Of a stretch of DNA of 64,000 nucleotides, positions 1,897 to 62,349 are shown piece by piece. Position 1 is the first letter of the stretch, and each line of letters opens with the position of its first letter. Source of the DNA: Haliscomenobacter hydrossis DSM 1100 (lineage in GTDB: Bacteria; Bacteroidota; Bacteroidia; Chitinophagales; Saprospiraceae); NCBI RefSeq assembly GCF_000212735.1, contig NC_015510.1, positions 186,001 through 250,000 of the forward strand. Direction: 5' to 3'. Position numbers and translations under genes: made by a program. Under the pieces are notes generated by a model. The model saw only the letters and a program-made list of their open reading frames with translations, was not told the DNA's origin and ran no database searches.

Positions 1897-2036
1897 AGTT
1901 GATGAAGGTTGATAAAAGTTGATGAAGGTTGATACTTAATAAACCATAAAAAGAACCTTCATCAACCCTCATCAACCCTCATCAACCCTCATCAACTTTT
2001 ATCAACCCTCATCAACCCTCATCAACCCTCATCAAC
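1897..2036. repeat. Long inverted repeat of 10-bp GTTGATGAAG units
   Basis: The left arm (1897-1934) consists of GTTGATGAAG-type units. The right part (1955-2036) is a run of about eight 10-bp ATCAACCCTC units with one ATCAACTTTT variant. The left arm pairs with 1981-2016, allowing G:U pairs. The element fills the whole gap, starting at the upstream stop codon and ending two bases before the next start codon, so a transcript reading through would carry a large hairpin directly before the YeiH start. Confidence 0.85.
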
Positions 2037-2038
2037 AC

Positions 2039-3301
2039 ATGGAAGCATCTAACGCAAGGTTTCGTATATCCGAGGATTGGACTTCGGTACTCATTGGTTT
2101 CCTGATCATTGGACTCGCCCTGAGCACCTTGTTTATTTTGCCAGCCCCACAATACGGCTGGTCAAACGGGGGAGAATTGGTGAACAATGTATTTTCTGCC
2201 GCAAACTTTAGCCTAATTTTCAATCAATTTGCTTTCATCTTGCTGTTTGGTGTATTGGGTGCTCGTTTGACGGGGATCAAGGTAAACAGCTTTATCAGCA
2301 CTTTACTTCTCTTGTATTCGATTACCTTGTTGGCGCAAATCCTGGCCGGGAATGCCTTTATCAAATCGCTCAACCTGGAGGCCGTAATTTTCAGCTTAAT
2401 TCTGGGTTTGCTCATTCGCCAGTTTTTTAATTTGCCAGAATGGTTTACCAAAGCCTTGTCCACTGAGCTGTTTGTCAAAATTGGTTTGGTGCTTCTCGGT
2501 TGCAGTGTGATTTTTTCAGACATCCTCAAAAACGGCACCCTCGGCTTGATTCAATCCTTAGTGGTGGTATTGAGTGTGTGGTATTTCTCCTATTGGCTCT
2601 GCAAACGTTGGAAAATCGATGAAGAAATGGCTTTTATGCTGTCTAGCGCGGTGTCCATTTGCGGCGTTTCAGCGGCCATTGCCACGGCAGGTGCCATCAA
2701 TGGCGATAGCAAAAAACTGTCCTTTGTGGTATCTGTAGTGTTGATCGTAGCCATCCCCATGATGATTTTTATGCCCATTTTGGCGAATTACATGGGGCTT
2801 TCACAGGAAATCACCGGAGCCTGGTTGGGTGGCACCATCGATACTTCCGGTGCGGTGGTAGCATCAGGAAGTATGGTCGGTGAAAAAGCGCTGGAGGTCA
2901 GTACCATTGTGAAGTTTTCCCAAAACGTATTGCTGGGCATTGCCGCGTTTTTCATCAGTGTGTATTGGACCCTCACGGGCAAAGAATCCGAAGGTGTGAA
3001 GGTGGAAAAACCAACCCTTGGAATCATCTGGGATCGTTTCCCCAAGTTTGTGCTCGGCTTTTTAGCTGCCTCGCTCGTTTTTTCCTTCCTATTGGAACCT
3101 GATACGGTCAAAGAAGTGAAAGGGCACCTGAAAAACATCCAGACCTTGTGGTTTGGGCTAGCATTCACCAGCATTGGCCTGGAAACCAAGTTTTCCGACT
3201 TGTTTAAGGACGGTTTCCGCAAACCCTTCTGGGCCTTTTTGATCGCACAATTTTTCAACATCATCATTACCTTGATCCTGGCTTATCTTTTATTCAGGTA
3301 A
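2039..3301 (+). CDS. YeiH family (UPF0324) putative sulfate exporter
   Basis: A 420-residue polytopic inner-membrane protein with about ten hydrophobic segments starting near residue 17. The family-typical conserved regions are present: LSSAVSICGVSAAIATAGAI in the middle and WLGGTIDTSGAVVASGSMVG later, with a C-terminal GLAFTSIGLETKF segment. YeiH/UPF0324 proteins are annotated as putative sulfate exporters; transport direction and substrate are not proven for this protein. It is longer than the roughly 350-residue E. coli member. The next gene starts 11 bp after its stop, so the two are probably co-transcribed. There is no Shine-Dalgarno sequence; the start abuts a repeat. Confidence 0.8.
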   Translation: MEASNARFRISEDWTSVLIGFLIIGLALSTLFILPAPQYGWSNGGELVNNVFSAANFSLIFNQFAFILLFGVLGARLTGIKVNSFISTLLLLYSITLLAQILAGNAFIKSLNLEAVIFSLILGLLIRQFFNLPEWFTKALSTELFVKIGLVLLGCSVIFSDILKNGTLGLIQSLVVVLSVWYFSYWLCKRWKIDEEMAFMLSSAVSICGVSAAIATAGAINGDSKKLSFVVSVVLIVAIPMMIFMPILANYMGLSQEITGAWLGGTIDTSGAVVASGSMVGEKALEVSTIVKFSQNVLLGIAAFFISVYWTLTGKESEGVKVEKPTLGIIWDRFPKFVLGFLAASLVFSFLLEPDTVKEVKGHLKNIQTLWFGLAFTSIGLETKFSDLFKDGFRKPFWAFLIAQFFNIIITLILAYLLFR

Positions 3302-3312
3302 AAAGCCAAACA

Positions 3313-4692
3313 ATGGAGCTTGTTCAACAATTAACCGAAGCCCTTGGCGCGGAATGTGTTTTATCACACGCCGAAGCCGCCCAACGAATAGCCAGCAATT
3401 GGGTCGGCGCAGAAAACCTGAATTGTCGGGCCTTACTTTTGCCGCGGAATACGGCTGAAGTCTCGACCGCACTGAAGATCTGCCATGCCGCCAAACAACC
3501 CGTGGTGCCCCATGGCGGCTTGACGAACGTGGTGGGCGGCGTATTGACTCAAGGCCACGAAATCGCCCTCAGTCTGGAAAGGATGAACGCCATTGAGGCT
3601 GTCGACGAAGCCAATCGAACGGCAACCGTACAAGCTGGAGTTGTTTTGCAAGAGCTCCAAAATCAGCTCCAACCCCGTGGTTTGTTTTTCCCACTTGACC
3701 TGGGTGCCAAGGGCAGCTGTATGATTGGGGGCAACATTTCCACCAATGCAGGTGGGCTGCAAGCGCTGCGCTACGGCGTCATGCGCAATTTGGTGCTGGG
3801 CTTGGAAGTCGTCCTGGCCGATGGAACCATCATCACCTCCATGAACCAATTGTTGAAAAACAATGCAGGGTACGACCTCAAACACCTGTTCATCGGTTCA
3901 GAAGGCACCCTTGGCGTCATCACCCGAGCCGTGCTCAAACTTGAAGATGTACCACTTAGCAAAAACACCGCGTACATTGCCCTCAACAGTTTTGCGCAAG
4001 CCTGTGATTTTTTGAGTTTTGCAAAAAAAACACTCGGTCATACCCTCAGCACTTACGAACTGATGTGGCAGGACTACTACCAACTGATGACTTCCTTACC
4101 TTCCCGTTATGCTCCCCCCCTGCCCCAAGATCATGCGTACTACGTCTTGCTGGAAGCGCAGGGCTACCATCCGGAGAACGACCAAAAACTTTTCCAGGAA
4201 ACCTTGGAAAGAGCCTTCGAAAGTGGCCTGATTGCCGATGCCTGTCTGGCACAAAGCCAGCAGGAACTGGACTGGTTTTGGGGCATCCGCGAACAAGTGG
4301 ATTTTATTTTTTCGGTGCATCAGCCCGTGTTTCTTTTTGATGTCAGTTTGTCGATTTCAAACATGGAAACCTATACTCAAGAGATTGCCAAAGGCTTGCA
4401 AAAAGTATGGCCGGATGTCTTCCTTTACGTATTTGGGCACATGGGCGATGGTAACTTGCATTTGTTTGTGTCTTGTGGGCAAAACGACCAGGCGACCCGT
4501 CATCAAGTAGAGGAAATCGTATTTAACCCTTTGACCGCTATTGGTGGTTCAATTACTGCTGAGCACGGTGTTGGTTTGGAAAAAAAGGCCTGGCTGCATT
4601 TGAGTCGGAACCCAGCAGAAATCGCCCTGATGAAAAGTTTGAAGGCCGCGTTGGATCCGGCGGGAATTTTGAATCCAGGGAAGATTTTTTAA
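3313..4692 (+). CDS. FAD-linked oxidoreductase of the GlcD/D-2-hydroxyacid dehydrogenase type
   Basis: A 459-residue protein of the VAO/PCMH flavoprotein family. The FAD-binding domain (roughly residues 35-200) shows PHGGLTNVVGG, then GSCMIGGNISTNAGG and FIGSEGTLGVITRAVLKL. The C-terminal FAD-oxidase domain carries HMGDGNLHLF (about 375-384) and ITAEHGVGLEKKAW, which hold the histidines that bind the active-site metal and substrate in D-lactate/D-2-hydroxyglutarate dehydrogenases. It probably oxidises a D-2-hydroxyacid, but the exact substrate cannot be read from the sequence. It follows the YeiH gene by 11 bp and precedes a sulfurtransferase by 57 bp. Confidence 0.85.
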   Translation: MELVQQLTEALGAECVLSHAEAAQRIASNWVGAENLNCRALLLPRNTAEVSTALKICHAAKQPVVPHGGLTNVVGGVLTQGHEIALSLERMNAIEAVDEANRTATVQAGVVLQELQNQLQPRGLFFPLDLGAKGSCMIGGNISTNAGGLQALRYGVMRNLVLGLEVVLADGTIITSMNQLLKNNAGYDLKHLFIGSEGTLGVITRAVLKLEDVPLSKNTAYIALNSFAQACDFLSFAKKTLGHTLSTYELMWQDYYQLMTSLPSRYAPPLPQDHAYYVLLEAQGYHPENDQKLFQETLERAFESGLIADACLAQSQQELDWFWGIREQVDFIFSVHQPVFLFDVSLSISNMETYTQEIAKGLQKVWPDVFLYVFGHMGDGNLHLFVSCGQNDQATRHQVEEIVFNPLTAIGGSITAEHGVGLEKKAWLHLSRNPAEIALMKSLKAALDPAGILNPGKIF

Positions 4693-4749
4693 CTCAAGTC
4701 ATGCTCAAAAAGCCAAATCCCTTACTAAATTCACGCTAAAATACACCCT

Positions 4750-5592: not shown

Positions 5593-5593
5593 C

Positions 5594-8629: not shown

Positions 8630-8677
8630 GACTACAATTTGGTTTACCTATAAAATAGAGCTTTCAGTGGTATTTTT

Positions 8678-9262: not shown

Positions 9263-9300
9263 GGAATCGCATTGAAGGAAACAAAGTACACAATACCTTT

Positions 9301-9398
9301 AGAAGTGAAAAGCGAAAAACGAATAGCGAATAGCTAAAAGTGAAAACTATTACATTTCATTATTCGCTTTTAGCTTTTCACTATTCGCTTTTCACTTC
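9301..9398. repeat. Inverted repeat of 7-bp AGYGAAA units
   Basis: The left arm (9301-9347) is a run of degenerate heptads (AGTGAAA, AGCGAAA, AACGAAT, AGCGAAT, AGCTAAA). The right arm (about 9361-9398) is the complementary run; the outermost 16 bases pair perfectly. It lies between the divergent exonuclease and PhoD genes, one of the few copies not at a gene 3' end. The same unit recurs at 40166-40240 and 54464-54500. Confidence 0.85.
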
Positions 9399-9412
9399 TC
9401 AACTTCATTGCA

Positions 9413-14000: not shown

Positions 14001-14826
14001 TGATTTTTTAATTCCCGGAGTTGGACAAATCGGAGATTCTCTGGTTTACAAGTCCACTGCGTTTTATCAACAGTCGCCTAATCTGGTCGATTCTACCATC
14101 TATCGATACCAGGATATTTTGCTTTGTTCTTACGATCCCAACGATAAATTAGTACAGCCCGAGGGCCTCCAAAAAAATAAATTGACCTTGTTCAACCAAT
14201 ACCTCAATTACACCATCCGCTTTCAAAATACGGGTAATTTTCCCGCCCGTCACATTACCATCATTGATACCATCGATCGGGATTTGGATTTCGCGAGCTT
14301 CGAGTTTTTAAATGCCAGCCATCCTATCACTGAGGTTACGGGTAAAGGCAATGTGGTAAAATTTGTGTTCAAAAACATCAATCTACCCGATTCAACCAAT
14401 AATGAACCAGAAAGCCACGGATTTGTGAGTTTTAGAATCAAAGACCGCAGTGGTTTGGCTGAAAAAACAACAATCAACAATACCGCGTATATTTATTTTG
14501 ATCAAAATCCAGCTATCGTTACCAATACTACCCAAAACATCATGGTATCCAAATTTGAGGATATCTCCACTTCAAGTCAAGATAAATCCATCTCCCCACA
14601 CTTTAGGTTATATCCCAATCCAGCCCAAGATTATTTTTTATTGGATGCCTCAATGGATAATTTCAGCAGCATCAAGTGGAAAATGATCAATACCCTGGGA
14701 AAAACATGCCTGGAAGGAAATACACACCGTTTCCCCCAACATATTTCGACCCATACCCTTCCAAATGGCATGTACTATTTGATACTTGAGGGGAGAAAAA
14801 TAATGAAAGTGGTCATTACCCGCTAA
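11020..14826 (+). CDS. Large secreted protein with type IX secretion (type A) sorting domain
   Basis: A 1268-residue protein. A signal peptide (MIPRIFTLVLLLSSRLCFAQ) is followed by about 800 residues of beta-propeller-like repeats resembling PQQ/YVTN blades (for example KIDPQAGKIIWSTKI and KIDKQTGAIIWSKL). Near residue 825 there is an SdrD-B-like module starting IKGLIFWDKNSDGKQSKDEP, then a DUF11/DUF7619-like module with CSYDPNDKLVQPEG, LNYTIRFQNTGNFPA and AYIYFDQNPAIVTN. The C-terminal 75 residues, from FRLYPNPAQDYF to MKVVITR, form a type A sorting signal. It is predicted to be anchored to or released from the cell surface; its ligand is unknown. Codon use looks more A/T-rich than that of its neighbours. 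Confidence 0.85.
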   Translation: MIPRIFTLVLLLSSRLCFAQFTEHYTVDSLTESGQPSKSIFYQNHVYALGISTDNEGPEFIARKLDTLGNTVWSTALITPRLGYPPTYQCFHLSTLDDQYLLVGISDYASLAYTILKIDLKNGAIISKYLDTNGGYTYTELSFASKDTAVFIVEAYHDLILATFDKLSGKTVQTYKLGGRDLNPFAIVGDKRGNVYYSKGDTIFKINYQNPGLKLWTLPFPALDKITISKIYLDPDDGALYAFGQAKYNYTLPIVVKIDPQAGKIIWSTKIEDLGDFIFSAMDVSPRSLYISWNDRFAGGAYYTPTSKIDKQTGAIIWSKLHRFDPSLPISQRTTVITAGSDGIYLLGHDWGIMKLDTLSGAKIYSFQVNVYESIYDLQGYNPGRNIFETPTRLISIGQKPYRSISFKEVFLTLDKNTGKIIAEKDYGGLKQYDAQTIQMLATPQGQFIAIQQIGAMGKVVLFDADNTPLWEYFLPQERKLIYAKILNDSLLAVLSGGFNLDLFNFVKKKFLKNFPISNTDYSTFFLAKPSIVFHPPNMIFVAIHRNASEPQTAMYRIDLPANFNSLNEHTLYIRNSVSLPSDKFSVNNVLVPLNKDTIIFINGYSIEKRSIPSSDIRDDYKGIPTGFVQKVHLDHYQNNFLLALGYDRSEQVVLTKINRTAFTKVWTNSLPVYGQISKWIQGETSNIIYIIVNQANRQLHLLKYDTENQTVIWQKTLFETPNESVHFTDICLNQNDQSLLIAGYTESIPQNKKAIFINIGFDGSIQSNLLAEGDFPGNNQGLCVLYLEPANKSYFGGSINKSPQKASSAFIYSFSADQLNNSIKGLIFWDKNSDGKQSKDEPGVALGDVFLGFTTRVYHNAEGQFKTLVPSGQFTLRYRVPEHWILTSGEFSYPIDASNIQNLKDTFRFGIIPIQMVNKIDVSATSQQLVCNEEAPLYVIVKNKGTSIQNVKLRLDFQGTPILQNMLPDSIRQRAMYWTFDSLSPGAARWIKLDFLIPGVGQIGDSLVYKSTAFYQQSPNLVDSTIYRYQDILLCSYDPNDKLVQPEGLQKNKLTLFNQYLNYTIRFQNTGNFPARHITIIDTIDRDLDFASFEFLNASHPITEVTGKGNVVKFVFKNINLPDSTNNEPESHGFVSFRIKDRSGLAEKTTINNTAYIYFDQNPAIVTNTTQNIMVSKFEDISTSSQDKSISPHFRLYPNPAQDYFLLDASMDNFSSIKWKMINTLGKTCLEGNTHRFPQHISTHTLPNGMYYLILEGRKIMKVVITR

Positions 14827-14830
14827 AAAT

Positions 14831-14928
14831 GGTTTTAGGGTTTTAGGGTTATCAAAAACTCGAGCATTATTGCACTAGATCTTGCTTTCCCCAAACCCTA
14901 AAACCCTAAAACTTAAAACCCTAAAACC
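14831..14928. repeat. Inverted repeat of 8-bp GGTTTTAG units between convergent genes
   Basis: The left arm GGTTTTAGGGTTTTAGGGTT (14831-14850) is complementary to part of 14893-14928, which reads AAACCCTAAAACCCTAAAAC followed by related units. The element begins 4 bp after the upstream stop and ends directly at the stop of the convergent stress-protein gene. The telomere-like look comes from the unit sequence only. A related element is at 34846-34926. Confidence 0.85.
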
Positions 14929-15771
14929 TTATTTCAACGGAATCGCCAGCACCGGAATTGCCGCGTGGTTGATGGTATCCTCGGTCAAACTGCCCAGCAA
15001 AACGTGGGCCAAACCGCGGCGTTGATGCGTTCCCATCACGATCAGGTCAGCATTCTTTTCTTTGGCAAAATCAAAAATCACCTGCTCTTCATTGAGCGTA
15101 AAGGTTTCGGTTTTGTAGATTTCAACATCCTTCAAACCCGTAGATTCAACGAGCGCTTTTTCCCGTGCTTCGATTTCTGTATCTCCCCGGTAAGCACCCG
15201 GATTGTTGATGTACAACAGGTGGAATTTTCCGCCAAAGATGGCTTCCCATTCACGCAAGCTTTCAAATAATTTCTTTTGGTCAGCTTCAAGTGTAGTAGG
15301 AACTACCACGTTTTTGAATTCGAAAGTTTTGTTGTCATGCACTGTCAATACAGGGCATTTTGCCGTCCGAACGACTTTTTCGGTATTCGAGCCAACAAAA
15401 AATTCTTTCAAGCCACTGGCACCTTTGGTTCCCATAATAATGAGGTCGACACCTTCGGTTTGTACGACGTCTTCAACAATGGTAGAAAATGGGCCGCCAA
15501 TTACAGCAGTACGGATGTTGTGTGCGTTGAGTCTGGCCGCTACATCACCCAGCATTTTTTCCAAATTTTCGTGAACCATATTGAGGTATTTTTCCTCAAT
15601 GGTACGATCGTATGTATAGTAGTATTCGGATACTGGTAAGGCTGCGCCAATTTGTTCGTTGACGTGCAAAAGCACGATCTCAGCGTCAATTTTTTTGGCG
15701 ATTTGTACAGCTACATCCAATGCTTGTTGGGCATTTTCAGAGAAATCGGTAGGAACAAGGATTTTTTTCAT
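14929..15771 (-). CDS. Tandem universal stress protein (UspA family)
   Basis: 280 residues containing two UspA domains, about 1-147 and 150-280. Each ends in the nucleotide-binding pattern G-2x-G-9x-G-S: MGTKGASGLKEFFVGSNTE in the first and MGTHQRRGLAHVLLGSLTED in the second. The N-terminus MKKILVPTDFSENAQQAL is typical. It is probably an ATP-binding cytoplasmic stress-response protein of unspecified output. A minus-strand TAATTTTG (15800-15793) lies 22 bp upstream of the start and fits the -7 box of Bacteroidota promoters, but no matching -33 TTG was found. Confidence 0.9.
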   Translation of the reverse strand: MKKILVPTDFSENAQQALDVAVQIAKKIDAEIVLLHVNEQIGAALPVSEYYYTYDRTIEEKYLNMVHENLEKMLGDVAARLNAHNIRTAVIGGPFSTIVEDVVQTEGVDLIIMGTKGASGLKEFFVGSNTEKVVRTAKCPVLTVHDNKTFEFKNVVVPTTLEADQKKLFESLREWEAIFGGKFHLLYINNPGAYRGDTEIEAREKALVESTGLKDVEIYKTETFTLNEEQVIFDFAKEKNADLIVMGTHQRRGLAHVLLGSLTEDTINHAAIPVLAIPLK

Positions 15772-20569: not shown

Positions 20570-20640
20570 TCCCGCAGATTACGCAGATGTACACAGATAT
20601 TATCATAAAAATCTGTAAAAAATCTGCGTGATCTGCGGGA
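20570..20640. repeat. Inverted repeat of CGCAGATT units
   Basis: The left arm (20570-20598, TCCCGCAGATTACGCAGATG then TACACAGAT) pairs with 20611-20640 (ATCTGTAAAAAATCTGCGTG then ATCTGCGGGA), with a 12-base loop. It starts 21 bp before the CopA start codon and ends 12 bp after the stop of the superoxide dismutase gene on the minus strand. The same units recur at 55208-55290. Confidence 0.88.
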
Positions 20641-25362: not shown

Positions 25363-25409
25363 ATAACGTGGGCCGTCCTAAATTTCAGTAGCTCAAAGCG
25401 ACATTTTTT

Positions 25410-25500
25410 AACACAAAGTGCACAAAGGAGGGCACAAGGGACACAATCAGGACGAACCCTACTTTGTGTCCCTTGTGCCCTCCTTTGTGCACTTTGTGTT
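25410..25500. repeat. Perfect 36-bp inverted repeat
   Basis: Positions 25410-25445 are exactly complementary to 25465-25500, with a 19-base loop. The arm is built from units such as CACAAAGTG, CACAAAGGAGGG and CACAAGGGA. It lies 47 bp after the biotin carboxylase stop and 52 bp from the convergent HtrA stop. Confidence 0.92.
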
Positions 25501-25552
25501 ATTTTTTTTATCCGCTTAGGTGCTTTCCAAAATTTGAAACAACTCATGTTGA

Positions 25553-31013: not shown

Positions 31014-31154
31014 TTGAGAAGGTTGAGAAGTTGAGGGAGGTTGAGGCTACCGCGAGCGATACAATAGGACGTGTTCGTTTACAAAAATACAGAGCCGCTT
31101 TGGTTGGTCACTCGCGGTAGCCTCAACCTTCTCAACCTCCTCAACTTCTCAACT
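31012..31154. repeat. Inverted repeat of GGTTGAGAAG units with conserved inner stem
   Basis: The left arm (31012-31056) starts inside the stop codon of the previous gene; the right arm is 31111-31154. The inner 18 bases around CTCGCGGTAGCCTCAACC pair perfectly; the outer GGTTGAG/CTCAACC units pair in slipped registers. A sister copy at 59387-59513 shares CTCGCGGTAGCCT and the following units. Confidence 0.88.
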
Positions 31155-31176
31155 TTTACAAATTCTTATCAGCAAG

Positions 31177-34853: not shown

Positions 34854-34926
34854 GTTTTAGGTTTTAAGTTGTTGGCGCTTCGACTTCGCTCAGCGACCGA
34901 CAACTTAAAACCTAAAACTTAAAACC
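34846..34926. repeat. Inverted repeat of GGTTTTAAG units with CTTCG-rich loop
   Basis: The left arm (34846-34875) overlaps the TonB gene stop; the right arm is 34898-34926 and ends 3 bp from the convergent gene's stop. Units are 7-bp TTTTAAG/TTTTAGG. The loop reads CGCTTCGACTTCGCTCAGCG, similar to the loops at 37343-37364 and 43993-44014. Confidence 0.88.
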
Positions 34927-34929
34927 TAC

Positions 34930-37299: not shown

Positions 37300-37319
37300 A
37301 AATAATGGTTTGGAGGGTG

Positions 37320-37387
37320 TTTCAGCGTACCCTCGATCACTGCCCCTCGGCTTCGCTCGGGGACCAGTGATCGAGGGTACGCTGAAA
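37320..37387. repeat. Perfect 23-bp inverted repeat with CTTCG-rich loop
   Basis: 37320-37342 is exactly complementary to 37365-37387. The 22-base interior CCCCTCGGCTTCGCTCGGGG plus AC can form a smaller hairpin through CCCC/GGGG. It lies between the cytochrome c gene and the CHU_C gene, both on the minus strand, 20 bp upstream of the latter's start. Confidence 0.9.
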
Positions 37388-37484
37388 TACCACAGTTTGT
37401 CGGGTCGGAAATTACGACCTTTTACCCAAAAACAACGGAGAAAGCAGGATTTTATTGATCACCGAGGTGTAATACACCTGACGA

Positions 37485-40165: not shown

Positions 40166-40240
40166 AAAAATGAAAAATGAAAAGCGAAAAATGAAAAGTA
40201 GTCTGTAGTGTTTTTCATTTTTCGTTTTTCATTTTTCATT
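40166..40240. repeat. Inverted repeat of 7-bp AATGAAA units
   Basis: The left arm (40166-40198) has AATGAAA/AGCGAAA heptads; the right arm (40211-40240) is its complement and ends exactly at the stop codon of the carboxylase gene at 40241. It belongs to the AGYGAAA family of 9301-9398. Confidence 0.85.
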
Positions 40241-43407: not shown

Positions 43408-43978
43408 ATGTACAGAAATTTTCTTTTTGTTGCAATCATTGGGATGATTGCAATCAGCCCTTCTTTTGCCCAGGTCGATGTAAAAGTAGGCCCTCTTGGA
43501 CCTCTCTTTGGCACCCTGAATTTGCGCAGTGAATTTGGCCTGGCCGACAACTTTGGATTGGAAGCCACAGTCGGAGGATCATGGAACAAAATCAATTTCG
43601 ATGAAGGGGAAGACCTGAAGAATACCACCCTGCGCTTTGGCGTCAATGGTCGGTATTACTTCAACCCCAGCGATATTGGTTTGGACAAATTTTACCTCGG
43701 CCTTTATTCTCGTTATTCCTCAGGTAAAGCCCGCGGTACTGGCGAAAATAGCGATGAATACAACACCAATCGGTTCTCGGGTGGCTTTCCTGGTTGGATT
43801 CAAAACCTTCTCGCGCAATGAGCGCCTGCATTTTGACTTCAATCTGGGTTTTGGTCGCGCCTTTGTGTACAACATCGATGCCCTCAACGATTCCGAGCCC
43901 GTCAACCTGAGCGATATTCCGTTTTTAAACTTCGATTTACCAACGACGATTGCGATCGGGTATCGCTTTGGAAAGTAA
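43408..43978 (+). pseudogene. Outer-membrane beta-barrel protein disrupted by a frameshift
   Basis: The first frame starts at ATG 43408 with a signal peptide (MYRNFLFVAIIGMIAISPSF-AQ) and barrel-like strands up to NTNRFSGGF, then reads into a stop at 43819-43821. The next frame continues from about 43782 with VAFLVGFKTFSRNERLHFDF and ends IGYRFGK at 43978, a proper barrel C-terminus. Removing one G from the GGG at 43779-43781 restores one reading frame of about 190 residues. The fold resembles small DUF3575-like barrels, with low certainty. It may be a real mutation, a phase-variable G-run or a sequencing error. Confidence 0.75.
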
Positions 43979-44030
43979 GTTGAAAAGGTCGGGCACCTCG
44001 GCTCCGCTCTGTGACCGACCTTTTCAACTT
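43977..44030. repeat. 16-bp inverted repeat between convergent genes with CTCGG-rich loop
   Basis: AAGTTGAAAAGGTCGG (43977-43992) pairs perfectly with 44015-44030. It overlaps the stop codons of both convergent genes. The 22-base loop GCACCTCGGCTCCGCTCTGT plus GA resembles the loops at 34876-34897 and 37343-37364. Confidence 0.88.
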
Positions 44031-44808
44031 AAAAATCCGTATTTGCTTCCTTCAGATCCAATTCCTTGATCCAAATATTGCGGTATAACACATTGTGCCC
44101 TTCCGCCTGTAACTTCAATCCTCCCGGCACATCAGTAATGCCCTTCCCACCATCATTTCCACCATCTATGCCCGAGTTGGGACCGCCCCATACTTGTTGA
44201 ATGCGTCGGTTGACGTGTACTTTTTTGCCATTGAAATACATGGTAACCAAGGCTTTTTCCGTCAATTTTCCGTCGGTAAAACGTGCTGCCCGAAAGGTGA
44301 TGTCATAAGCGTTCCACTTCCCTACCCCATTGTAGGCATGATAAGGCGATTCTGATTCATTGATCACGGCTGCCATGCCATGTTTGGTAGAATCGCCGTC
44401 CAGCACCTGAATTTCATAGCGGTTTTGCAGGTATACCCCACTGTTTCCTCCTTTTTCGGATATGAAAAACTCTACGTGTAGCCGAAAATCCCGAAAGGCT
44501 TTTTTGGTAACAATATCGGCGGAGCCGTACTTTCCACCCGCCGCAGTTGGGTCGTTGCTGTTAACCGCGGTCCCCCCATCTACGGGGTCTTTGACGATCG
44601 TCCATTTGATCGGTAGCGTGGCCGCCAGGCGTGGCCCATTCCAGTAGGTCCAATTTTTGTCCAGTGATTTGCGTGAGCCATTAAAATAGACTTTGGCACC
44701 TTTTTCGGGCTTGAGGCCTACCTGGCTGTGCAAAGTGTTAAAGCCCTGAAGCAGGCAGAGCAGTGCCAAAAAGAGTTTGGCAGTGGTAACAGTTGATTTT
44801 GCGATCAT
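44029..44808 (-). CDS. DUF1080 (3-keto-disaccharide hydrolase-like) exported protein
   Basis: 259 residues with a signal peptide (LFLALLCLLQGFNTLHSQ). The concanavalin-like DUF1080 fold shows DFRLHVEFFISEKGGNSGVY, LQNRYEIQVLDGDSTKHG, WNAYDITFRAARFTDGK and GGLKLQAEGHNVLYRNIWIK. Recent work names part of this family 3-keto-disaccharide or 3-keto-glucoside hydrolases; activity here is assumed from the fold. It stands alone between a frameshifted gene and the M16 gene. Confidence 0.85.
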   Translation of the reverse strand: MIAKSTVTTAKLFLALLCLLQGFNTLHSQVGLKPEKGAKVYFNGSRKSLDKNWTYWNGPRLAATLPIKWTIVKDPVDGGTAVNSNDPTAAGGKYGSADIVTKKAFRDFRLHVEFFISEKGGNSGVYLQNRYEIQVLDGDSTKHGMAAVINESESPYHAYNGVGKWNAYDITFRAARFTDGKLTEKALVTMYFNGKKVHVNRRIQQVWGGPNSGIDGGNDGGKGITDVPGGLKLQAEGHNVLYRNIWIKELDLKEANTDF

Positions 44809-51800: not shown

Positions 51801-54463
51801 ACGATATGGACGACAATTTCCGCGAAGCCGCAGCCATGCTGAGTTTCCAGGCGGACAAAGAGAAATACAACGTAGGTGAAACGGTGACCTTGACCATTCC
51901 CGGCGGGAAAAACGGTCGGGTCTTGGTTTCTCTGGAAACAGGCACCAAAATCCTGCAAACTTTCTGGGCCAAATCGGTAGAAGGTGAAAACAAAATCACC
52001 TTCAAAACCACCCCGGACATGTCGCCAACCGTGTACGCCAACGTCGCCTTGATCCAGCCACACGGCCAAGTGGCGAATGACTTGCCGATTCGTCTGTATG
52101 GCATTACGCCCATCCAGATTGAAAATGCGGAGACCCTCCTCAGCCCGACCATCGAATCGCCCGCTGAATTCCGGCCAGAAACGACCGTAAGTGTCAGCGT
52201 CGGCGAAAAATCGGGCAAAGCCATGGCCTATAGCCTGGCCGTGGTAGACGAAGGTTTGTTGGGGCTGACCCGCTTCAAAACCCCCAATCCGCACGATGTT
52301 TTTTATGCTCGCGAAGCCCTTGGCGTTCAAACCTGGGACATTTACGATAAAGTTCTCGGCGCTTTTGCCGGTGAAATGGAAGGCATCCTCAGCATTGGTG
52401 GCGACGGTGCCATCGATCCCGGTGCCTTGAACAATACCGCCAACCGCTTCAAACCCATGGTGGTTTGTCTGGGGCCTTTCGAATTGGCCAAAGGCCGCAC
52501 GAACAAGCACCAGATCAAAATACCCAACTACATCGGAGCTGTGCGGGTGATGGTGGTGGCCGCCAAAGACAATGCCTACGGCGCTGCGGATAAAAGTGTA
52601 CCCGTGCGCAACCCGCTCATGGTGCGCTCTACCTTGCCCAGGGTGATTTCTCCCGGCGATCAGTTTGAACTGCCCGTGAACGTGTTTGTCACCGATGCCA
52701 AAATCAGCAATGTACAGGTCAAGGTGAGCGAAAGTAGCGGCTTGGTATCGATTGAAGACGGTGACCAAAGCATGAGCTTCAGCCGCAACAATACGGATCA
52801 AATTACTGGTTTTAAAATCAAGGTGAAAGACAGGACGGGTATTGCGAAATTCAAAATTATGGCCACGGGTGGCGGTGCTTCTTCAGCAGAAGAAATTGAA
52901 ATCGACGTGCGCAATCCGAATCCGTTCCAAACCAAAGTGTTTGCCGAGGTGGTAGAACCCGGCAAGTCCTGGGAACAAGCCATCGAAGTATTCGGCTCGG
53001 CGGGAACCCGCAGTACTATGCTGGAAGTATCCAATGTGCCCCCACTCAACCTGGGCGAACGTTTGGGTTACCTCCTCTCCTACCCTTATGGCTGTATTGA
53101 ACAAACGATCTCGGCGGCATTCCCGCAGTTGTTTGTAAGCAACCTCATGGAACTGGATGAAAAACGCCAAAAAGAAGTCGCCACCAACATCAAAGCGGCC
53201 ATTGAGCGCGTCAAAACCTTCCAAACCAACGAAGGTGGTTTCACCTACTGGCCCGGCAATGGCACGCCTGATCATTGGTCGACGAGCTACGTAGGGCATT
53301 TCCTCGTGGAGGCCAAAGCCAAAGGGTACGATGTGCCGCAAAACCTGATCAAGGATTGGAGCAAATTCCAGAAAAAAGTGGCACGGATGTGGGATTCCAA
53401 ACTGCCCGCTTACGGCTTCTGGAGCATCGAAGGCCATGAATTGAGCCAGGCTTACCGCTTGTACACCCTGGCCCTGGCGGGTGAGGCCGACATGGCGTCG
53501 ATGAACCGCTTGCGCGAAAATCCCAAAATCAACCTGGCGGCACGCTGGCGTTTGGCTGCGGCTTATGCCCTGGCCGGGAAACCAGAGGTGGCCAAGGAAT
53601 TGATCCAGGACAAACCCACCGAAGTGGCCGAATATACCGAGATGAGTTACACCTACGGATCGGGCATGCGCGACCGCGCCATGATCCTCGAAACCCTGGT
53701 GTTGCTCAAAGACATGAAAAAAGCTGGGGCACTGGTGCAATACCTCTCGCAAGGATTGAGCAGCCAGCGTTGGTACTCTACCCAAACCGTTGCGTACACC
53801 TTGATGGCGGTATCCAAGTATTTGGGTGATCAAAAAGCGACCCAGACCTTTAGTTTCAGCTACGCGGTAAGTGGAGGCCAAAGCACTTCGGCCAACTCCA
53901 AAAGTGCCATCATGCAGATCAACTTGCCCGCAGGTGGCAGCAATACCAGCCTGACCGTGAAAAATACCAGCAAAGCCAAGCTCTTTGTCCGGGTGGTGCA
54001 ACGTGGTCAACCCACCGCAGGACAGGAATCGGCCCAGGCCAATGACCTCAAAATTGCGGTTGCCTATACCGACATGAGTGGCAAAGCGCTGGATCCGGCC
54101 AATCTGCCCCAGGGCAAAGACTTTATCGCCGAAGTACGGGTGAATCACCCCAATTCGCGCCCCGTACCTTACCTGGAGCTGGCCCTGAACCAAACCTTCC
54201 CCTCGGGCTGGGAAATCAGCAACAGCCGCATGACGGACATCGAAAGTACGTCCCAATCGGCCTTCGATTACCAAGACATCCGGGATGATCGGGTAAATAC
54301 CTTCTTCGACCTGCCAGAAAGCCAAAGCAAAACCTTCCGGGTGCGTTTGAATGCGGCTTATCCGGGGCGGTATTATTTGCCAGCGGTGTCTTGCTCAGCG
54401 ATGTATGATAACTCGATTAGTGCGAATACGAAGGGGATGTGGGTGACGGTGACAGCGCGGTGA
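48854..54463 (+). CDS. Alpha-2-macroglobulin family lipoprotein with thioester motif
   Basis: 1869 residues. FLALLSTGC is a lipobox (Cys at about residue 30). An SbsA-like Ig domain follows (VYAYTSGVISKTDPIRVRF, about 42-140), then MG domains, including the MG2-like GLLYGERGVWRPGDSVYLNF. The macroglobulin core has YSLAVVDEGLLGLTRFKTPN, and the thioester-type YPYGCIEQT has Cys1414. An alpha/alpha-barrel complement-like domain and a C-terminal MG10-like domain follow. Residues about 480-520 form an unusual Tyr/Asp/Glu-rich insert (NYYGYEGYYDDYEYENRDD). It should trap proteases in the periplasm or at the surface. The usual PbpC partner is not adjacent. Confidence 0.92.
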   Translation: MSMLNAKALRPLVLGTTTVVLFLALLSTGCRKNKDISTLAAENPFVYAYTSGVISKTDPIRVRFAQNVANSDEIGKEAPAILSISPNIKGKLTWEDANTLRLDPNQDLVSGTTYDVSVNVKQVIQDAKGENANFAFQFHTREQHYQVELEGMRSASATDYSKQSLKGTVYTSDVAENTEVEKMLNAQQDGGKLNVQWNHSTDQLVHYFTVKSVNRGQQPSEVKLAYDGNSIGVKNDKSETYKIPAVGSFTAMDADAVQIPEQYIRITFSDPLNKSQNLDGLISIDEYEGTLRYIIEDNTVRVYPDKTLDGSYRVRIAPGVENTKGNTFVETTIWDVTFEEIKPGVRLVGKGVILPNSEGLMFPFESAGLKSVDIEVFKIYNNNILQFLQDNSLDGEYDLYKVGRIVLQKKVNLQTLSPNAKAGRWSRYAIDLGKLIKADEQAIYQVRIGFRSEYAAIGCMADANANGLGGDPFSRTGEDEDEPLESIMDNYYGYEGYYDDYEYENRDDPCTKEYYNSDHFVQRNVISSNLGLIAKKGGNRKLMVIVSDLRSTDPISGAQVEVFDRQNQSIGKGSSNGDGIADVAYKGNPFVAIVTHSGQRGYIRLEDGESLSLSKFDVAGSVTQKGLKGLLYGERGVWRPGDSVYLNFMIEDREKRLPENYPITMELYNARGQLQEKRTSSKTVGGIYPLYFATSPDAPTGNWRVKVKAGGAIFEKILKIETVKPNRIKVDLNTGSGNELQAEDGKMNARLQADWLTGSPASGLKAIVEVQLREASTGFPKYPSYIFDDPARKLTKTEPRVIFDNVLDGEGKANISTTLLEEDLAPGMLTASFQTRVFEKGGDFSTDNVSVKYSPYSSYAGMEIPKNKYGSPQFEVGKNNTIRLVDVDKNGKPVSGRRLSIGLYKVEWRWWWDQYQENEANYNSGEHVGAVQTAAVNTNAKGEASWSFKTSTWGRYMIRVCDAESGHCTGGFIYIGTPWYEGDDMDDNFREAAAMLSFQADKEKYNVGETVTLTIPGGKNGRVLVSLETGTKILQTFWAKSVEGENKITFKTTPDMSPTVYANVALIQPHGQVANDLPIRLYGITPIQIENAETLLSPTIESPAEFRPETTVSVSVGEKSGKAMAYSLAVVDEGLLGLTRFKTPNPHDVFYAREALGVQTWDIYDKVLGAFAGEMEGILSIGGDGAIDPGALNNTANRFKPMVVCLGPFELAKGRTNKHQIKIPNYIGAVRVMVVAAKDNAYGAADKSVPVRNPLMVRSTLPRVISPGDQFELPVNVFVTDAKISNVQVKVSESSGLVSIEDGDQSMSFSRNNTDQITGFKIKVKDRTGIAKFKIMATGGGASSAEEIEIDVRNPNPFQTKVFAEVVEPGKSWEQAIEVFGSAGTRSTMLEVSNVPPLNLGERLGYLLSYPYGCIEQTISAAFPQLFVSNLMELDEKRQKEVATNIKAAIERVKTFQTNEGGFTYWPGNGTPDHWSTSYVGHFLVEAKAKGYDVPQNLIKDWSKFQKKVARMWDSKLPAYGFWSIEGHELSQAYRLYTLALAGEADMASMNRLRENPKINLAARWRLAAAYALAGKPEVAKELIQDKPTEVAEYTEMSYTYGSGMRDRAMILETLVLLKDMKKAGALVQYLSQGLSSQRWYSTQTVAYTLMAVSKYLGDQKATQTFSFSYAVSGGQSTSANSKSAIMQINLPAGGSNTSLTVKNTSKAKLFVRVVQRGQPTAGQESAQANDLKIAVAYTDMSGKALDPANLPQGKDFIAEVRVNHPNSRPVPYLELALNQTFPSGWEISNSRMTDIESTSQSAFDYQDIRDDRVNTFFDLPESQSKTFRVRLNAAYPGRYYLPAVSCSAMYDNSISANTKGMWVTVTAR

Positions 54464-54500
54464 AGTGAAAAGCGAATAGCGAAAAGTGAATAGCGAAAAG
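54464..54500. repeat. Single-arm heptad repeat AGYGAAA
   Basis: Five or six degenerate heptads (AAGTGAAAAGCGAATAGCGA and on) start at the macroglobulin stop codon. No complementary arm follows; instead a separate hairpin begins at 54504. It looks like a half copy of the 9301-9398 type. Confidence 0.75.
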
Positions 54501-54503
54501 TAA

Positions 54504-54553: not shown

Positions 54554-54574
54554 GGGGAGGTCATGAAACGGCAT

Positions 54575-54979: not shown

Positions 54980-55012
54980 GCTACTATTTTTTTCATCAGG
55001 ATAATTTTGAAA

Positions 55013-55120: not shown

Positions 55121-55207
55121 GACTCAAAAATAAGCGAATATAAGGCTTGATGCAAAAAATTGTTGAAAGTCTAGCACTCGCCTACGGTGCATGCACTTAG
55201 ACATCAT

Positions 55208-55290
55208 TCGCCCGCAGATTGCGCAGATTTACGCAGATTTTTTCAAAAAAAGAGTCATTATCTGCGTAAATCTGCGTGATCTGCGGGCGA
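55208..55290. repeat. Inverted repeat of CGCAGATT units, second copy
   Basis: The left arm (55208-55238) and right arm (55260-55290) pair at 29 of 31 positions around a 21-base A/T-rich loop. The units CGCAGATT/AATCTGCG are those of 20570-20640. Confidence 0.88.
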
Positions 55291-55470
55291 AAAAAATGAG
55301 CCTGACGAAGTCAGCGTTCTGATCTTTTATAATCCTCCGCTCCTCTCCCACTTGATTTTATTTCGAACTCCCTCCATTTTTTCAAATAAAATATTGAACT
55401 TGGCTACGAAAAGAATTTTTCTGCGCAACTTGCCCATTAATATGGCGATCGCGCATTTAACCAACTGATT

Positions 55471-58035: not shown

Positions 58036-58073
58036 GCTAGCGAAAGTTTAGGATGCAACTGGATATTTTTTTC

Positions 58074-58223
58074 GCAGCTTCGCTGCTTTTTTATAAACAC
58101 GACGTCACGACGGAACGACGACACGACGTTAGCTGCCGCTACAAGCGCGTAGCGCGCAAAAACGTCGTGTCGTCGTGGTAAAAAACGATTTGGCGCAGCC
58201 GAATCAAATTAATTCGTTGTGTT
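58074..58223 (+). repeat. Composite 3'-end repeat element, copy 1
   Basis: It begins GCAGCTTCGCTGC-TTTTTT (a terminator-like hairpin), then ACACGACG 8-bp units (58097-58130) that pair with 58161-58178, and ends with TTTGGCGCAGCCGAATCAAA then TTAATTCGTTGTGTT. It starts 38 bp after the stop of the heme-protein gene. An inverted, colinear copy is at 62157-62349; the two ends match closely while the middle differs. Confidence 0.85.
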
Positions 58224-58282
58224 GATGAGCATACGACGTTCGACAGTATTGAGATGCTAAATGTTTACATAAATCAAAGAAA

Positions 58283-59386
58283 ATGAAGCAGACAAACCCA
58301 TACCCAGCCAAACAGCGCGGCATCAAGCGAAGGGAGTTTGTACAAACCGCCAGCCTTGGCCTCGCCGCCCTGACCAGCCCCATCTCCATCCTGTCTGCTC
58401 TGGTTGGGGGAACGGCGATGGGCATTGTGGTACATTCTTATGCCACGCGGTGGAATGCCAAGGCAGAAAGTAAAAACTACCCTGCCTTTACCAATGCCAT
58501 TCAACTCCTGGAGCACAGTCACAGCATCGGAGCCGGAGGAATCCAGGTGGTAGTTGGGGGATGGACGCAGGATTTTGCCAAAAAAGTGCGAGACAGCCGG
58601 GAGAAATTGGGGCTTTATCTGGAAGGGAGTATCGGTTTGCCCAAAGCCGCTGCCGATGTTGCCACGTTTGAAAAAGAAGTGCTTGCGGCCAAAGAGGCAG
58701 GTGTCCAAATCCTCCGAACCGTTTGTTTGAATGGACGCAGGTACGAAAATTTTCATTCCGCCGAGGCATTTAAGGCCTTCAAAGAACAATCGTTACAATC
58801 CATCCGCTGGGCCGAACCGATTGTCAAAAAACACCGCATAAAACTGGCGGTAGAAAACCACAAAGATTGGAAAGCCCAGGAACTGGTGGACATCATCAAA
58901 AGTATATCCAGTCCCTGGGTAGGCGTTACCCTCGATTTTGGCAACAACATCTCCCTGTTGGAAGATCCGATGGAAGTCATTACCACCCTAGCCCCATACG
59001 CTTTTTCCACCCACGTAAAAGACATGGGTCTGGGCGAGTACGAGCAGGGCTTTTTGTTGTCGGAAGTGCCCCTGGGTAGCGGCGTGGTTGACTTGTCCGC
59101 AGCCGTAGCGTTGTGTAAAAAAATGAATCCGGGCATTACGTTCAACCTGGAAATGATCACGCGCGATCCGCTGGAAATTCCTTGTTTCAGTGAGGGCTAT
59201 TGGCCCACTTTCCCCCAAACACCAGCCCCTCAATTGGCCAAAATCATCCACATGGTGCGGGCGAAAAAATTCGCAGGAGCTTTGCCTTCGGTGAAAAATC
59301 TGGCTTTTGAAGAAAAGCTGGCTTTTGAAGAAAAAAATGTGCTGGAATGTTTACAGTACAGCAAGAATACACTAGGTTTAGGGTAG
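58283..59386 (+). CDS. Sugar phosphate isomerase/epimerase (TIM barrel), Tat-exported
   Basis: 367 residues. GIKRREFVQTASLGLAALTS is a twin-arginine signal. The AP-endonuclease-2-like barrel shows NYPAFTNAIQLLEHSHSIG, AGVQILRTVCLNGRRY, IKLAVENHKDW, PWVGVTLDFGNNISLLEDP, YAFSTHVKDMGLGEYE and ITFNLEMITRDPLEIP; the Glu, Asp, His and Glu in these strands are the likely metal ligands. Such exported xylose-isomerase-like proteins act on keto or epimerised sugars in Bacteroidota; the substrate is unknown. It ends in an inverted repeat. Confidence 0.85.
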   Translation: MKQTNPYPAKQRGIKRREFVQTASLGLAALTSPISILSALVGGTAMGIVVHSYATRWNAKAESKNYPAFTNAIQLLEHSHSIGAGGIQVVVGGWTQDFAKKVRDSREKLGLYLEGSIGLPKAAADVATFEKEVLAAKEAGVQILRTVCLNGRRYENFHSAEAFKAFKEQSLQSIRWAEPIVKKHRIKLAVENHKDWKAQELVDIIKSISSPWVGVTLDFGNNISLLEDPMEVITTLAPYAFSTHVKDMGLGEYEQGFLLSEVPLGSGVVDLSAAVALCKKMNPGITFNLEMITRDPLEIPCFSEGYWPTFPQTPAPQLAKIIHMVRAKKFAGALPSVKNLAFEEKLAFEEKNVLECLQYSKNTLGLG

Positions 59387-59513
59387 GTGGTTGAGGAGGT
59401 TGAGAAGTTGAGAAGGTTGAGACTACTGAAAGAATGTGTTTGATTGTGATGTGTGCGTGTCTCTCGCGGTAGCCTAAACCTTCTCAACCTCCTCAACTTC
59501 TCAACTTCTCAAC
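59387..59513. repeat. Inverted repeat of GGTTGAGAAG units, second copy
   Basis: The left arm (59387-59421) starts right after the stop codon; the right arm is 59472-59513. CTCTCGCGGTAGCCT in the centre and CTTCTCAACCTCCTCAACTT in the right arm match the element at 31012-31154. It ends 15 bp before the next start codon. Confidence 0.87.
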
Positions 59514-59528
59514 CAAATTTAAACAAAA

Positions 59529-60320
59529 ATGGATCAAGGATTAAAAGCACTTCCCGGCATAAAATTATTTGACCTCAGTGGCAAAACGGCCATCGTCACG
59601 GGTGGATCAAAAGGGCTCGGCCTGGCCATGGCCGCAGGTTTGGCCTCGGCTGGTGCCAACATCCTGCTGGTCAATCGCAACGAGGCAGAAGGCATCCAGG
59701 CTGCCGCCGAATTGGCGCAAGCCTTTTCCATTCGAGCCGACTCTTTTGCCGCAGATGTGACCAAGCAGGCACAAACCGAAGCCATGGCGCAAAAAGCGAT
59801 GGACACCTTCGGTCGCATCGACATTTTGATCAACAGCGCGGGCATCAACATCCGCGGCGCAATTGATGAATTGAATCTGGAGGATTTTAACCAGGTCATG
59901 GCCGTGAACGTGACGGGCACCTGGTTGTGCTCCAAAGCGGTGGTTCCACACATGAAAAAAGCGGGTACAGGGAGCATCATCAATTTGGCCAGTACCCTTG
60001 GCTTAGTGGGCCTCGCCAATCGTACGCCCTACACCTCCAGCAAGGGCGCCGTGGTGCAAATGACTCGTGCGCTGGGCCTAGAATTGGCACCTTTCAACAT
60101 CAAGGTAAACGCCATTTGCCCAGGGCCGTTTTTAACTGAAATGAACCTGCCCATCGCGGATACGGAAGAGGGCAAAAAGTTTGTCGTAGGTGCCACAGCC
60201 TTGGGGCGCTGGGCGGAAATGAAGGAAATTCAGGGTGCAGCGATTTTTTTGGCGAGTGAAGCGGCGAGTTATATGGTCGGGAGTATGGTTACGGTGGATG
60301 GGGGCTGGACGGCGCGGTGA
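59529..60320 (+). CDS. SDR oxidoreductase, gluconate 5-dehydrogenase-like
   Basis: A 263-residue classical SDR. It begins LFDLSGKTAIVTGGSKGLGL with the TGxxxGxG loop, then INSAGINIRGAIDELNLEDF, IINLASTLGLVGLANRTPYT with the catalytic Ser, YTSSKGAVVQMTRALGLEL with Tyr and Lys, and SYMVGSMVTVDGGW at the end. Members of this branch oxidise gluconate or related sugar acids at C5 or C3. With the isomerase upstream and a GntP permease downstream, a sugar-acid pathway is likely, though not proven. Confidence 0.85.
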   Translation: MDQGLKALPGIKLFDLSGKTAIVTGGSKGLGLAMAAGLASAGANILLVNRNEAEGIQAAAELAQAFSIRADSFAADVTKQAQTEAMAQKAMDTFGRIDILINSAGINIRGAIDELNLEDFNQVMAVNVTGTWLCSKAVVPHMKKAGTGSIINLASTLGLVGLANRTPYTSSKGAVVQMTRALGLELAPFNIKVNAICPGPFLTEMNLPIADTEEGKKFVVGATALGRWAEMKEIQGAAIFLASEAASYMVGSMVTVDGGWTAR

Positions 60321-60340
60321 TTCCCAGCTACCCCCAAACT

Positions 60341-60379
60341 TATCCGTTCCAATCCGCTTAAATCCGCGTCATCCGTTCT
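60341..60379. repeat. Single-arm tandem repeat AATCCGNNTNA
   Basis: Four degenerate units of about 10 bp (TATCCGTTCC, AATCCGCTTA, AATCCGCGTC, ATCCGTTCTC) follow the SDR stop by about 20 bp. There is no opposite arm; the IS element lies just beyond and may have separated it. Confidence 0.6.
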
Positions 60380-60501
60380 CCCATTCATGTCGCTTTAGTC
60401 TAACTCACTCGCCTAAAACTAGGGAATTTGGCGCGGCACACAAATCTCCCCTAGAAGCCAGAGATGACTTAACTCCAAATGCCCCATAATGTAAAAGCGG
60501 T

Positions 60502-61842: not shown

Positions 61843-61998
61843 CTTCAACCTGTTTTGGCCTAATTACCTTCGATCAAGTCGGATTTTAGGTCTGTTTAAT
61901 CTCGCCTTCGGGATAGAATGGCGCAGCATTCTTCACCAATATGCATCTTTGCAAGATCCAACTCGGATTAGACTCACATTGGGGTTGCTTAACTCCAA
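61843..61998 (-). ncRNA. Candidate bridge RNA locus in the left end of the IS110 element
   Basis: IS110 elements are known to express a bridge RNA from their longer non-coding end. Here the only such space is this 156 bp upstream of the transposase gene. Minus-strand GATCTT-GCA-AAGATGC can form a short stem. No promoter or fold was computed, so this is a positional candidate. Confidence 0.4.
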
Positions 61999-62059
61999 TT
62001 AATTAGTGCAATCTCTCATCGAACGTAACTTAGACTGGTTAACTAACTCTCCAAAGGTA

Positions 62060-62119
62060 GCGCCAAGTTCCCAGTTTTTCTGGCATCTTTGCAATGTGCC
62101 GTTAGGTGGGACTCACATT
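62060..62119. repeat. Diverged partial copy of the IS110 left end outside the element
   Basis: GCATCTTTGCAA (62083-62094), 15 variable bases, then GACTCACATT (62110-62119) repeat the arrangement at 61943-61980, where the same two blocks flank 16 different bases. GCGC at 62060 matches GCGC at 61921. It may be a remnant of a second related element or a homologous RNA. Confidence 0.6.
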
Positions 62120-62156
62120 ACGCAGCCCCTGTATTAAAAGACTTAGCAGATGTATA

Positions 62157-62349
62157 AACACAACGAATTAATTGGATTCGGCTTCGCCAAATATTTTTAA
62201 CACGACGACACGACGCAACGATGACACGACGGAATGGCTACCGCCTCAATACGACGCAAAGCGTCTTATACACTGAGCGCGTAGCGTGAAGATCGTCGTG
62301 TCGTCGTTGCGTCGTGTCGTCGTGTTTATAAAAAAAGCAGCGAAGCTGC
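62157..62349 (-). repeat. Composite 3'-end repeat element, copy 2 (inverted)
   Basis: Read on the minus strand it begins GCAGCTTCGCTGC-TTTTTTT (62349 down), then ACACGACG units, a divergent middle, the complementary units and TTTGGCGAAGCCGAATCCAA then TTAATTCGTTGTGTT. It lies 69 bp after the GntP stop, with the same polarity to its gene as copy 1 at 58074-58223. Confidence 0.85.

Follow-up and report, generated by a model that had tools for sequence, protein, structure and literature searches.

Gene-end hairpins of short tandem units in Haliscomenobacter hydrossis, and private units at shared sites in related species

We analysed a 64,000-nucleotide stretch of Haliscomenobacter hydrossis DSM 1100 (NC_015510.1, positions 186,001 to 250,000, or G000:C1:186001-250000; hereafter the window, with window positions counted from its first nucleotide), taken from a genome of 8.77 Mb in four contigs (G000), and describe the intergenic hairpins that it carries, most of which have arms made of short tandem units. 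An initial annotation had listed 14 gaps with such elements and two single arms, and an inverted repeat was found in place in 14 of 14. We sorted the elements post hoc, on the sharing of flanks, into kind B (CACAAAG, CACAGATT, CGCAGATT, GCGGATT, ACGACG and CGGAGTT; 63 elements in the genome sample described below) and kind A (GTTGAG, GTTGAA, AGTGAAA, GGTTCG and others; 92 elements), CGCAGATT being put in kind B by unit type, though it shares no flank here.

Kind A is represented in the window by a GTTGATGAAG hairpin at 1895-2036, which begins 2 nt past the stop at 1896 and has arms at 1898-1933 and 1981-2016 with the array running on to 2036; by an AAGCGAA/AGTGAAA heptamer hairpin at 9298-9402, between divergent genes and thus an exception to the gene-end rule; by a GGTTTTAG hairpin at 14825-14934, between convergent stops; by a GTTGAGAAG hairpin at 31012-31161 with an inner CTACCGCGAG core, which overlaps the stop at 31011-31013; by a GGTTTTAAG hairpin at 34846-34928, which overlaps the left gene's stop; by an AATGAAA heptamer hairpin at 40166-40240; and by another GTTGAGAAG hairpin at 59385-59514. 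Kind B comprises two CGCAGATT hairpins of a family present in many phyla (20570-20640, and 55207-55291 with three units per arm, between divergent genes), a CACAAAG hairpin at 25409-25501 (arms 100% complementary over 38 nt, with a left flank, CAAAGCGACA, common to other copies), and an ACGACG hairpin at 58074-58230, whose flanking mini-hairpins are common to other copies and of which a second window copy lies at 62157-62349. Two hairpins have no tandem array, one at 37316-37391, where three relatives carry other palindromic sequences, and a short one at 43976-44031, which overlaps both convergent stop codons. The two single arms also proved correct: an AAGCGAA array without inverted partner at 54463-54501 (+ strand), starting at the stop at 54463, and at 60341-60400 (- strand) one arm with a unit of the GCGGATT type (GCGGAT family), for which no partner was seen by eye.

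Arms were tested for a period of 5-13 nt by arm shuffling, repeats with p<=0.05 being defined as tandem-like. This held for 10 of the 14 hairpins, and those at 25409 (CACAAAG, p=0.106) and 55207 (CGCAGAT, p=0.08) carry recognisable family units, so that the description of the arms as tandem runs fails only at 37316 (p=0.10) and 43976 (p=0.475). The five unit families that had been named are real, and most elements do lie within 0-50 bp of a stop, the exceptions being the two between divergent genes (9306 and 55207) and those at 37316, 58115 and 62199, which are 94, 80 and 92 nt from the stop of the nearest upstream gene. Known RNA families gave 0 matches in the window at the gathering score.

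The genome-wide search and gene-end tabulation proposed with the initial annotation were run on three 400 kb blocks of the chromosome (1.2 Mb), in which 931 genes were called with a purpose-built hexamer model, using no reference annotation. An ungapped search with a score threshold of 16 yielded 235 inverted repeats, 227 of them more than 70% intergenic, and 0 in a shuffled control (one first-order shuffle per block, keeping the coding/non-coding layout). Arm periodicity reached p<=0.05 in 127 of the 235 and p<=0.01 in 97, the latter with periods of 7 to 11. We named 17 unit families by eye from part of the listing (its middle portion was not used) and assigned 155 of the 235 inverted repeats to them, including 116 of the 127 tandem-like ones; extrapolated from 155 in 1.2 Mb, the genome would hold about 1,100 elements.

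The hairpin, not the lone array, is the usual form, since 172 of 258 short-period intergenic arrays had an inverted 11-mer partner within 250 bp, as opposed to 1 for a reversed, uncomplemented control (7 of 61 for genic arrays, control 3). Across the 127 tandem-like repeats the two arms are identical at 0.94 and the units at only 0.69, which argues that the arms were copied mutually after the units had diverged, or were kept in step. Mismatches between arms are transition-type in 236 of 357 cases, as expected for recently made palindromes decaying by mutation. The same unit sense was seen on the left arm in 151 of 155 elements, a figure that demonstrates within-family consistency only, as the sense was set by majority.

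Among gaps of at least 30 bp, a family element was present in 43 of 119 convergent, 96 of 498 codirectional and 7 of 144 divergent ones. The proposal of a single architectural class with many sequences thus stands as to its one architecture, its many units and its enrichment at gene ends, and has to be amended to at least two kinds. The nearest stop lies at a median of 4 nt from kind A elements (74 of 85 within 25 nt) and of 46 nt from kind B elements (20 of 60; p=2e-12), divergent and in-gene elements being left out. Flanks, counted as shared when they matched another family member at a score above 40, are shared in 49 of 126 cases in kind B (ACGACG 14/16, CGGAGTT 9/10, CACAGATT 14/40, CACAAAG 10/32, GCGGATT 2/14, CGCAGATT 0/14) and in 9 of 182 in kind A, all from GTTGAG (7/38) and AGTGAAA (2/28). 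The suggestion that the elements are non-autonomous mobile units therefore receives support from the flank-sharing families and, less directly, from the bare ones.

With two mismatches allowed, CAAAGCGACA stands on one side of 13 of 16 CACAAAG copies and on both sides of one (75 of 4500 random 45-bp stretches), so that it is a flank on one side only, not an inverted repeat marking the ends. Outer complementarity above control was found in 25 of the 155 elements, and no target-site duplication was evident by eye in sites aligned at about 77% DNA identity. A candidate shared outer terminal repeat, AAAGCGACA, was rejected, with 1 inverted pair in 36 exact occurrences. By eye, some CACAAAG hairpins (G000:C1:3074452, 3354279 and 6334801) form part of a longer repeat whose inverted ends resemble TCATCCCGAATTTTT.

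Of 104 kind A element/stop pairs, 21 repeat the 10-mer that starts at the stop, with no more than one mismatch, within the next 88 nt, and 42 do so when two mismatches are allowed; for element-free genes the counts are 13 and 48 of 696. Coding-end 10-mers recur in 1 of the 104 pairs. The left arm of kind A closes on average 1.71 reading frames (1.45 for shuffled left arms) and the right arm 0.70, with all three frames closed by 30 of 92 left arms and 5 of 92 right arms; frame closing is reversed in AGCTnTGAGC, and the independent units in this comparison are families, not copies. Two cores recur at the hairpin tips across unit families: a CTACCGC-type core (12/19 GTTGAG, 3/8 ACGACG and 1/1 GAGTTCC elements), which in the relatives also lies within AGATGA and AGTGAAA arms, and, using a loose pattern, a GGTCAC/TGAGCG-type core (6/21 GGTTCG, 3/19 GTTGAG, 2/10 GTTGAA, 1/8 GGTTTTAG and 1/6 ATGACGA elements).

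We compared the elements with three genomes of the same genus (G001, G002 and G004). In an alignment of 28 genes (28,755 nt), G002 and G004 share 92% identity, G001 is 88% identical to either of them, and G000 is 77% identical to all three. Several draft contigs of these relatives seem to end near the repeats, so that draft genomes may undercount them. A hairpin scoring at least 16 was present in both G000 and a relative in 14 of 48 orthologous gaps, in G000 only in 8, in a relative only in 3 and in neither in 23 (Fisher p=0.0002); the same classes held 12, 6, 3 and 17 gaps when only codirectional ones were taken (p=0.002). The unit is the same in 1 of the 14 shared gaps (103746, CTTAGGTG type) and was read as related or different in the others.

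At window 34846, GGTTTTAAG in G000 corresponds to a CTNAGGTG hairpin at the same site in G001 and G004; at window 59385, GTTGAGAAG to a CTAAGGTG hairpin in G002 and G004; and at window 40166, AATGAAA to AGATGAA (G002) and AGTGAAA (G004) hairpins with a CTACCGCAG core. At site 217013 (window 31012), where G000 has GTTGAG with the CTACCGC core, G001 and G002 carry a CACAAAG hairpin and G004 a gap of 7 nt that looks like a deletion between ACTA repeats. Elements are also present in some relatives and absent from others, as at 3059445, where G000 and G004 have a hairpin. At 118515, G001 (outside the 48-gap table) retains the ATGACGA unit of G000; the aligned sequence of G002 runs from the gene into AGATGAG units, where by reading the element would supply the gene's stop, a property described for TAACTGA repeats as well (PMC4679880). 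In the gap orthologous to window 34853 (L064/L078), G002 was seen by eye to have an inserted stretch with a small open frame where the other species have a hairpin.

The clearest case of units private to a species at shared sites is the pair GTTCG/GTTCC. A pattern of GTTCG triplets (GTTCGNNGGTTCGNNNGTTCG) has 619 matches in G000 and 0 in G001-G004 (backward control 0), and one of GTTCC triplets (GTTCCNNGGTTCCNNNGTTCC), which is absent from G000, G001 and G003, has 14 in G002 and 240 in G004 (4 in the backward control). The sample contains 21 GGTTCG elements, 4 of them in regions already aligned; among the 17 others, 15 were located in G004 and two had no match, and with one of the 15 at a contig end 14 were readable, for a total of 18 sites. 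G004 carries GTTCC arrays at 13 of the 18, mostly as hairpins (287947 is a single-arm array), the other five showing a GTTGAG hairpin, a CACAAAG hairpin, GCGGAT and CACAAAG hairpins together, sub-threshold pairing by eye (348533) and an empty gap (6293622). Among 18 sites of other elements for which G004 could be compared, GTTCC occurs at 2, one of which belongs to a different family, GAGTTCC (p=0.0005 versus 13/18). Site and broad family are therefore kept while the unit is private, which descent with conversion would explain. In the GTTCC hairpins of G004, GTTCG is left in 8 of the 14 units in loops and in 3 of the 101 in stems, which suggests a unit change confined to stems; as two of the 16 elements in this set belong to other families, we draw no conclusion from it.

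A hairpin pattern of two CGCAGAT units, searched against genome contigs, gave at least 120 matches. The matches listed (80 loci, mostly metagenome-assembled genomes) are, judging by their record titles, spread over Chloroflexota, Planctomycetes, Gammaproteobacteria, Bacteroidota, Acidobacteria, NC10, Nitrospinota, Verrucomicrobia and others. A third unit and an ATC/GAT edge, neither of them required by the pattern, are present in many, and the loci hold further tandem-unit hairpins such as GTTGAG in a Bacteroidota metagenome-assembled genome and TGACGAATTACGAAT, 1 nt from the end of an open reading frame (ORF), in Ardenticatenia; 9 of 19 hand-picked further elements lie within called ORFs. Using a crude ORF caller, 81 CGCAGAT matches were placed inside ORFs (23), in codirectional (21), convergent (11) or divergent (7) gaps, or at edges (19), after leaving out a long palindrome (L142) that begins at a contig end and resembles a foldback artefact; these contexts demonstrate no gene-end rule in the other phyla.

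The account that we prefer, at about even odds, is that these elements are foldback-like mobile hairpins tolerated at gene ends, with mutually copied arms and with units homogenised per genome. On this account short, self-complementary DNA with arms of tandem 7-10 bp units would reach the gaps between genes as copies of sequence located elsewhere in the genome, some families coming from other species, and would persist chiefly at the 3' ends of genes, where a hairpin can be tolerated: the kind A arm met by the gene often has stops in several frames, so that insertion at or over a stop would do little harm. After arrival, one arm would template the other by foldback or quasi-palindrome copying and so keep them complementary, and ectopic conversion would homogenise units among dispersed copies, leaving each species with private spellings at the same gene ends. 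The data establish the architecture, the placement and dispersal of the elements, the occurrence of CGCAGATT in many phyla, presence and absence among species and, for the GGTTCG/GTTCC pair, private units at shared sites; copying, foldback templating and conversion are inferred from these.

Several observations weigh against this account. The unit grouping was made by eye, and a few members are chance motif matches in non-tandem repeats (42956 and 6249969). Kind A copies have almost no shared flanks and no evident ends, which is odd for a transposon. Frame closing is reversed in kind B (0.68 left versus 1.02 right), and GGTTCG, the most-copied kind A family, hardly closes frames (0.29 versus 0.14). 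No mobilising enzyme was found among the Y1 transposase genes or the protein clusters near CGCAGAT hairpins: a tandem-unit hairpin lies within 1.2 kb of 0 of the 7 Y1_Tnp matches in the genome (one of which has an internal stop), and within 3 kb of the hairpins at the 80 loci no autonomous partner emerged, the widest protein clusters, which were not compared with a family library, spanning 7 and 6 loci and the third 3. Finally, three GGTTCG sites could be read in both G001 and G002, and neither has the array there, though G002 is the sister of G004, with a 2-nt gap at 3059445 and other sequence at 287947 and 3058689. Simple descent with conversion does not fit this pattern; parallel insertion at fixed addresses or repeated precise loss would be needed.

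Fixed addresses are the core of a rather unlikely variant, genome-wide rewriting, in which the hairpin site would be inherited and the spelling not. Templated writing or homology-directed replacement would let each species overwrite or rebuild the arms with a unit of its own, GTTCG in G000 and GTTCC in G004. We find it similarly doubtful that the elements are RNA 3'-end hairpins kept because they block exonucleases, as proposed for repetitive extragenic palindromic (REP) elements. Such a role fits their place right after stops and the association of presence between orthologous gaps, and requires no T-run; the mismatch spectrum, however, is strand-symmetric and mutational in look, the orthologous CTAAGGTG arms of G002 and G004 show uncompensated changes by eye, and at 8 of 22 occupied gaps none of the relatives read has a hairpin.

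Bidirectional intrinsic termination had been suggested by the initial annotation; in a form with stems lengthened by slippage it seems to us less probable again, and the data do not support it. Placement just past stops, convergent enrichment and the fact that the corresponding gaps of relatives hold some kind of hairpin more often than other gaps do all agree with it, and single elements, such as that at 25409, do carry a T-run after the hairpin. Over 98 codirectional elements, however, the 10 nt after the hairpin contain on average 3.11 T in sense and 3.58 in antisense orientation, with at least 6 T in 10 of 98 versus 18 of 98, and mismatches on the sense strand show no G.U bias (84 G.U versus 79 A.C), so that no strand-specific selection on RNA pairing is seen, for which young elements may have had too little time. 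Stems of 20-50 bp with AT-rich heptamers are also unlike canonical terminators.

Movement of the elements as REPs by the genome's own REP-associated tyrosine transposases (RAYT/Y1) is very unlikely. Size, place and palindromy are REP-like, the genome has Y1 genes, and the two tip cores recur across unit families; the palindromes near Y1 genes, however, are of other families (AACCCCGAAGGGGTGAC at two, GGCGGATTTTAATCCGCC-like at two, GACCTCGGAGAGGTC and CCACGACTTCAGTCGTGG) or one unrelated inverted repeat. A palindromic repeat of about 200 bp with AACCCCGAAGGGGTGACAGG arms at G000:C1:107859-108061 (L006:7859-8061) has copies 88-94% identical in the relatives, and its core also flanks the Y1 genes at 1861241 and 6217240, so that it looks like a true REP/RAYT system. 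A separate inverted-repeat element of about 170 bp (TAGACTTGTTG...) at G000:C1:298661-298827 (L015:18661-18827), with copies up to 97% identical in G002, is a candidate for a recently active miniature inverted-repeat transposable element (MITE).

Growth in place at the stop codon by slippage and foldback, without movement, has an equally slim chance: some arrays begin at the stop codon, kind A flanks are almost unshared and heptamers drift at one site (AATGAAA, AGATGAA, AGTGAAA), but the same unit stands at many loci, as the GTTCG triplet matches attest, CGCAGATT hairpins occur across phyla, and convergence of unlinked sites on one private unit is not expected from a local process. Least probable of all is a role as paired sites at which a nucleoid or global regulator protein binds. 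The elements do have tandem 7-10 bp units on opposite strands, and a similar architecture was interpreted in this way in Geobacter metallireducens (PMC2700814), but the unit changes from one sister species to another where the site is kept, and the occupied gaps are gene ends, not divergent promoter gaps.

No named class was found for this architecture, as the initial annotation had anticipated, and close descriptions are in print. Foldback transposons of eukaryotes, such as Drosophila FB and, reportedly, Tetris, have long inverted repeats of short tandem units and are much larger; no homology is implied. Porphyromonas gingivalis belongs to the same phylum as the studied genome. Its BrickBuilt MITE similarly has a tandem repeat inside a small intergenic inverted-repeat element, but is described as one family with 23-nt direct units between small inverted-repeat ends (PMC4596501). 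The 'predicted global regulator binding sites' (classes 1-3) of Geobacter metallireducens, proposed to be possible IHF/HU sites, are a close match: tandem octamers (GTTGCTYN, TCTCCGTS) or heptamers (MTYCTGA), paired on opposite strands, dispersed and with variable pair distance (PMC2700814). The elements here likewise consist of tandem 7-9 nt units on both strands, in pairs; the Geobacter classes number 24, 21 and 8 pairs, and the accessible text of that report describes no gene-end rule, stop overlap or between-species unit change.

REPs and REPINs are also short, many-copy intergenic palindromes of convergent and codirectional gaps, downstream of coding regions (PMC3733652), and the dispersal and gap preference of our elements agree with this; those REPs, however, are conserved in sequence and bear a GTAG or CGTC tag, and the elements here have tandem-unit arms in many families, none beside Y1 genes. 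The TAACTGA repeats of Beggiatoaceae, Cyanobacteria and Bacteroidetes are similar as tandem heptamers, patchy across phyla, some of which overlap a stop codon, and differ in being direct arrays (169 sets direct and one indirect in one genome), the majority just upstream of starts (PMC4679880). Staphylococcal STAR repeats are reported to occupy different loci in each species (PMC3532100), unlike the elements here. A survey of stem-loops described clustering at 3' ends and novel families (PMC1590033). Perfect inverted repeats were surveyed in 2026 and found to peak behind stop codons, which was attributed to termination (PMC13155455). A literature search for the unit motifs returned nothing on these units, and we found no description of private units at shared gene ends in the open-licence literature at title and abstract level.

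The Geobacter and Beggiatoaceae reports and the elements described here may be parts of one widespread, unnamed class. Sister species that have hairpins at the same gene ends with different units point to an unusual, fast rewriting of non-coding DNA, which would be the counterpart, in bacteria, of a satellite-like concerted evolution, and one whose addresses are known.

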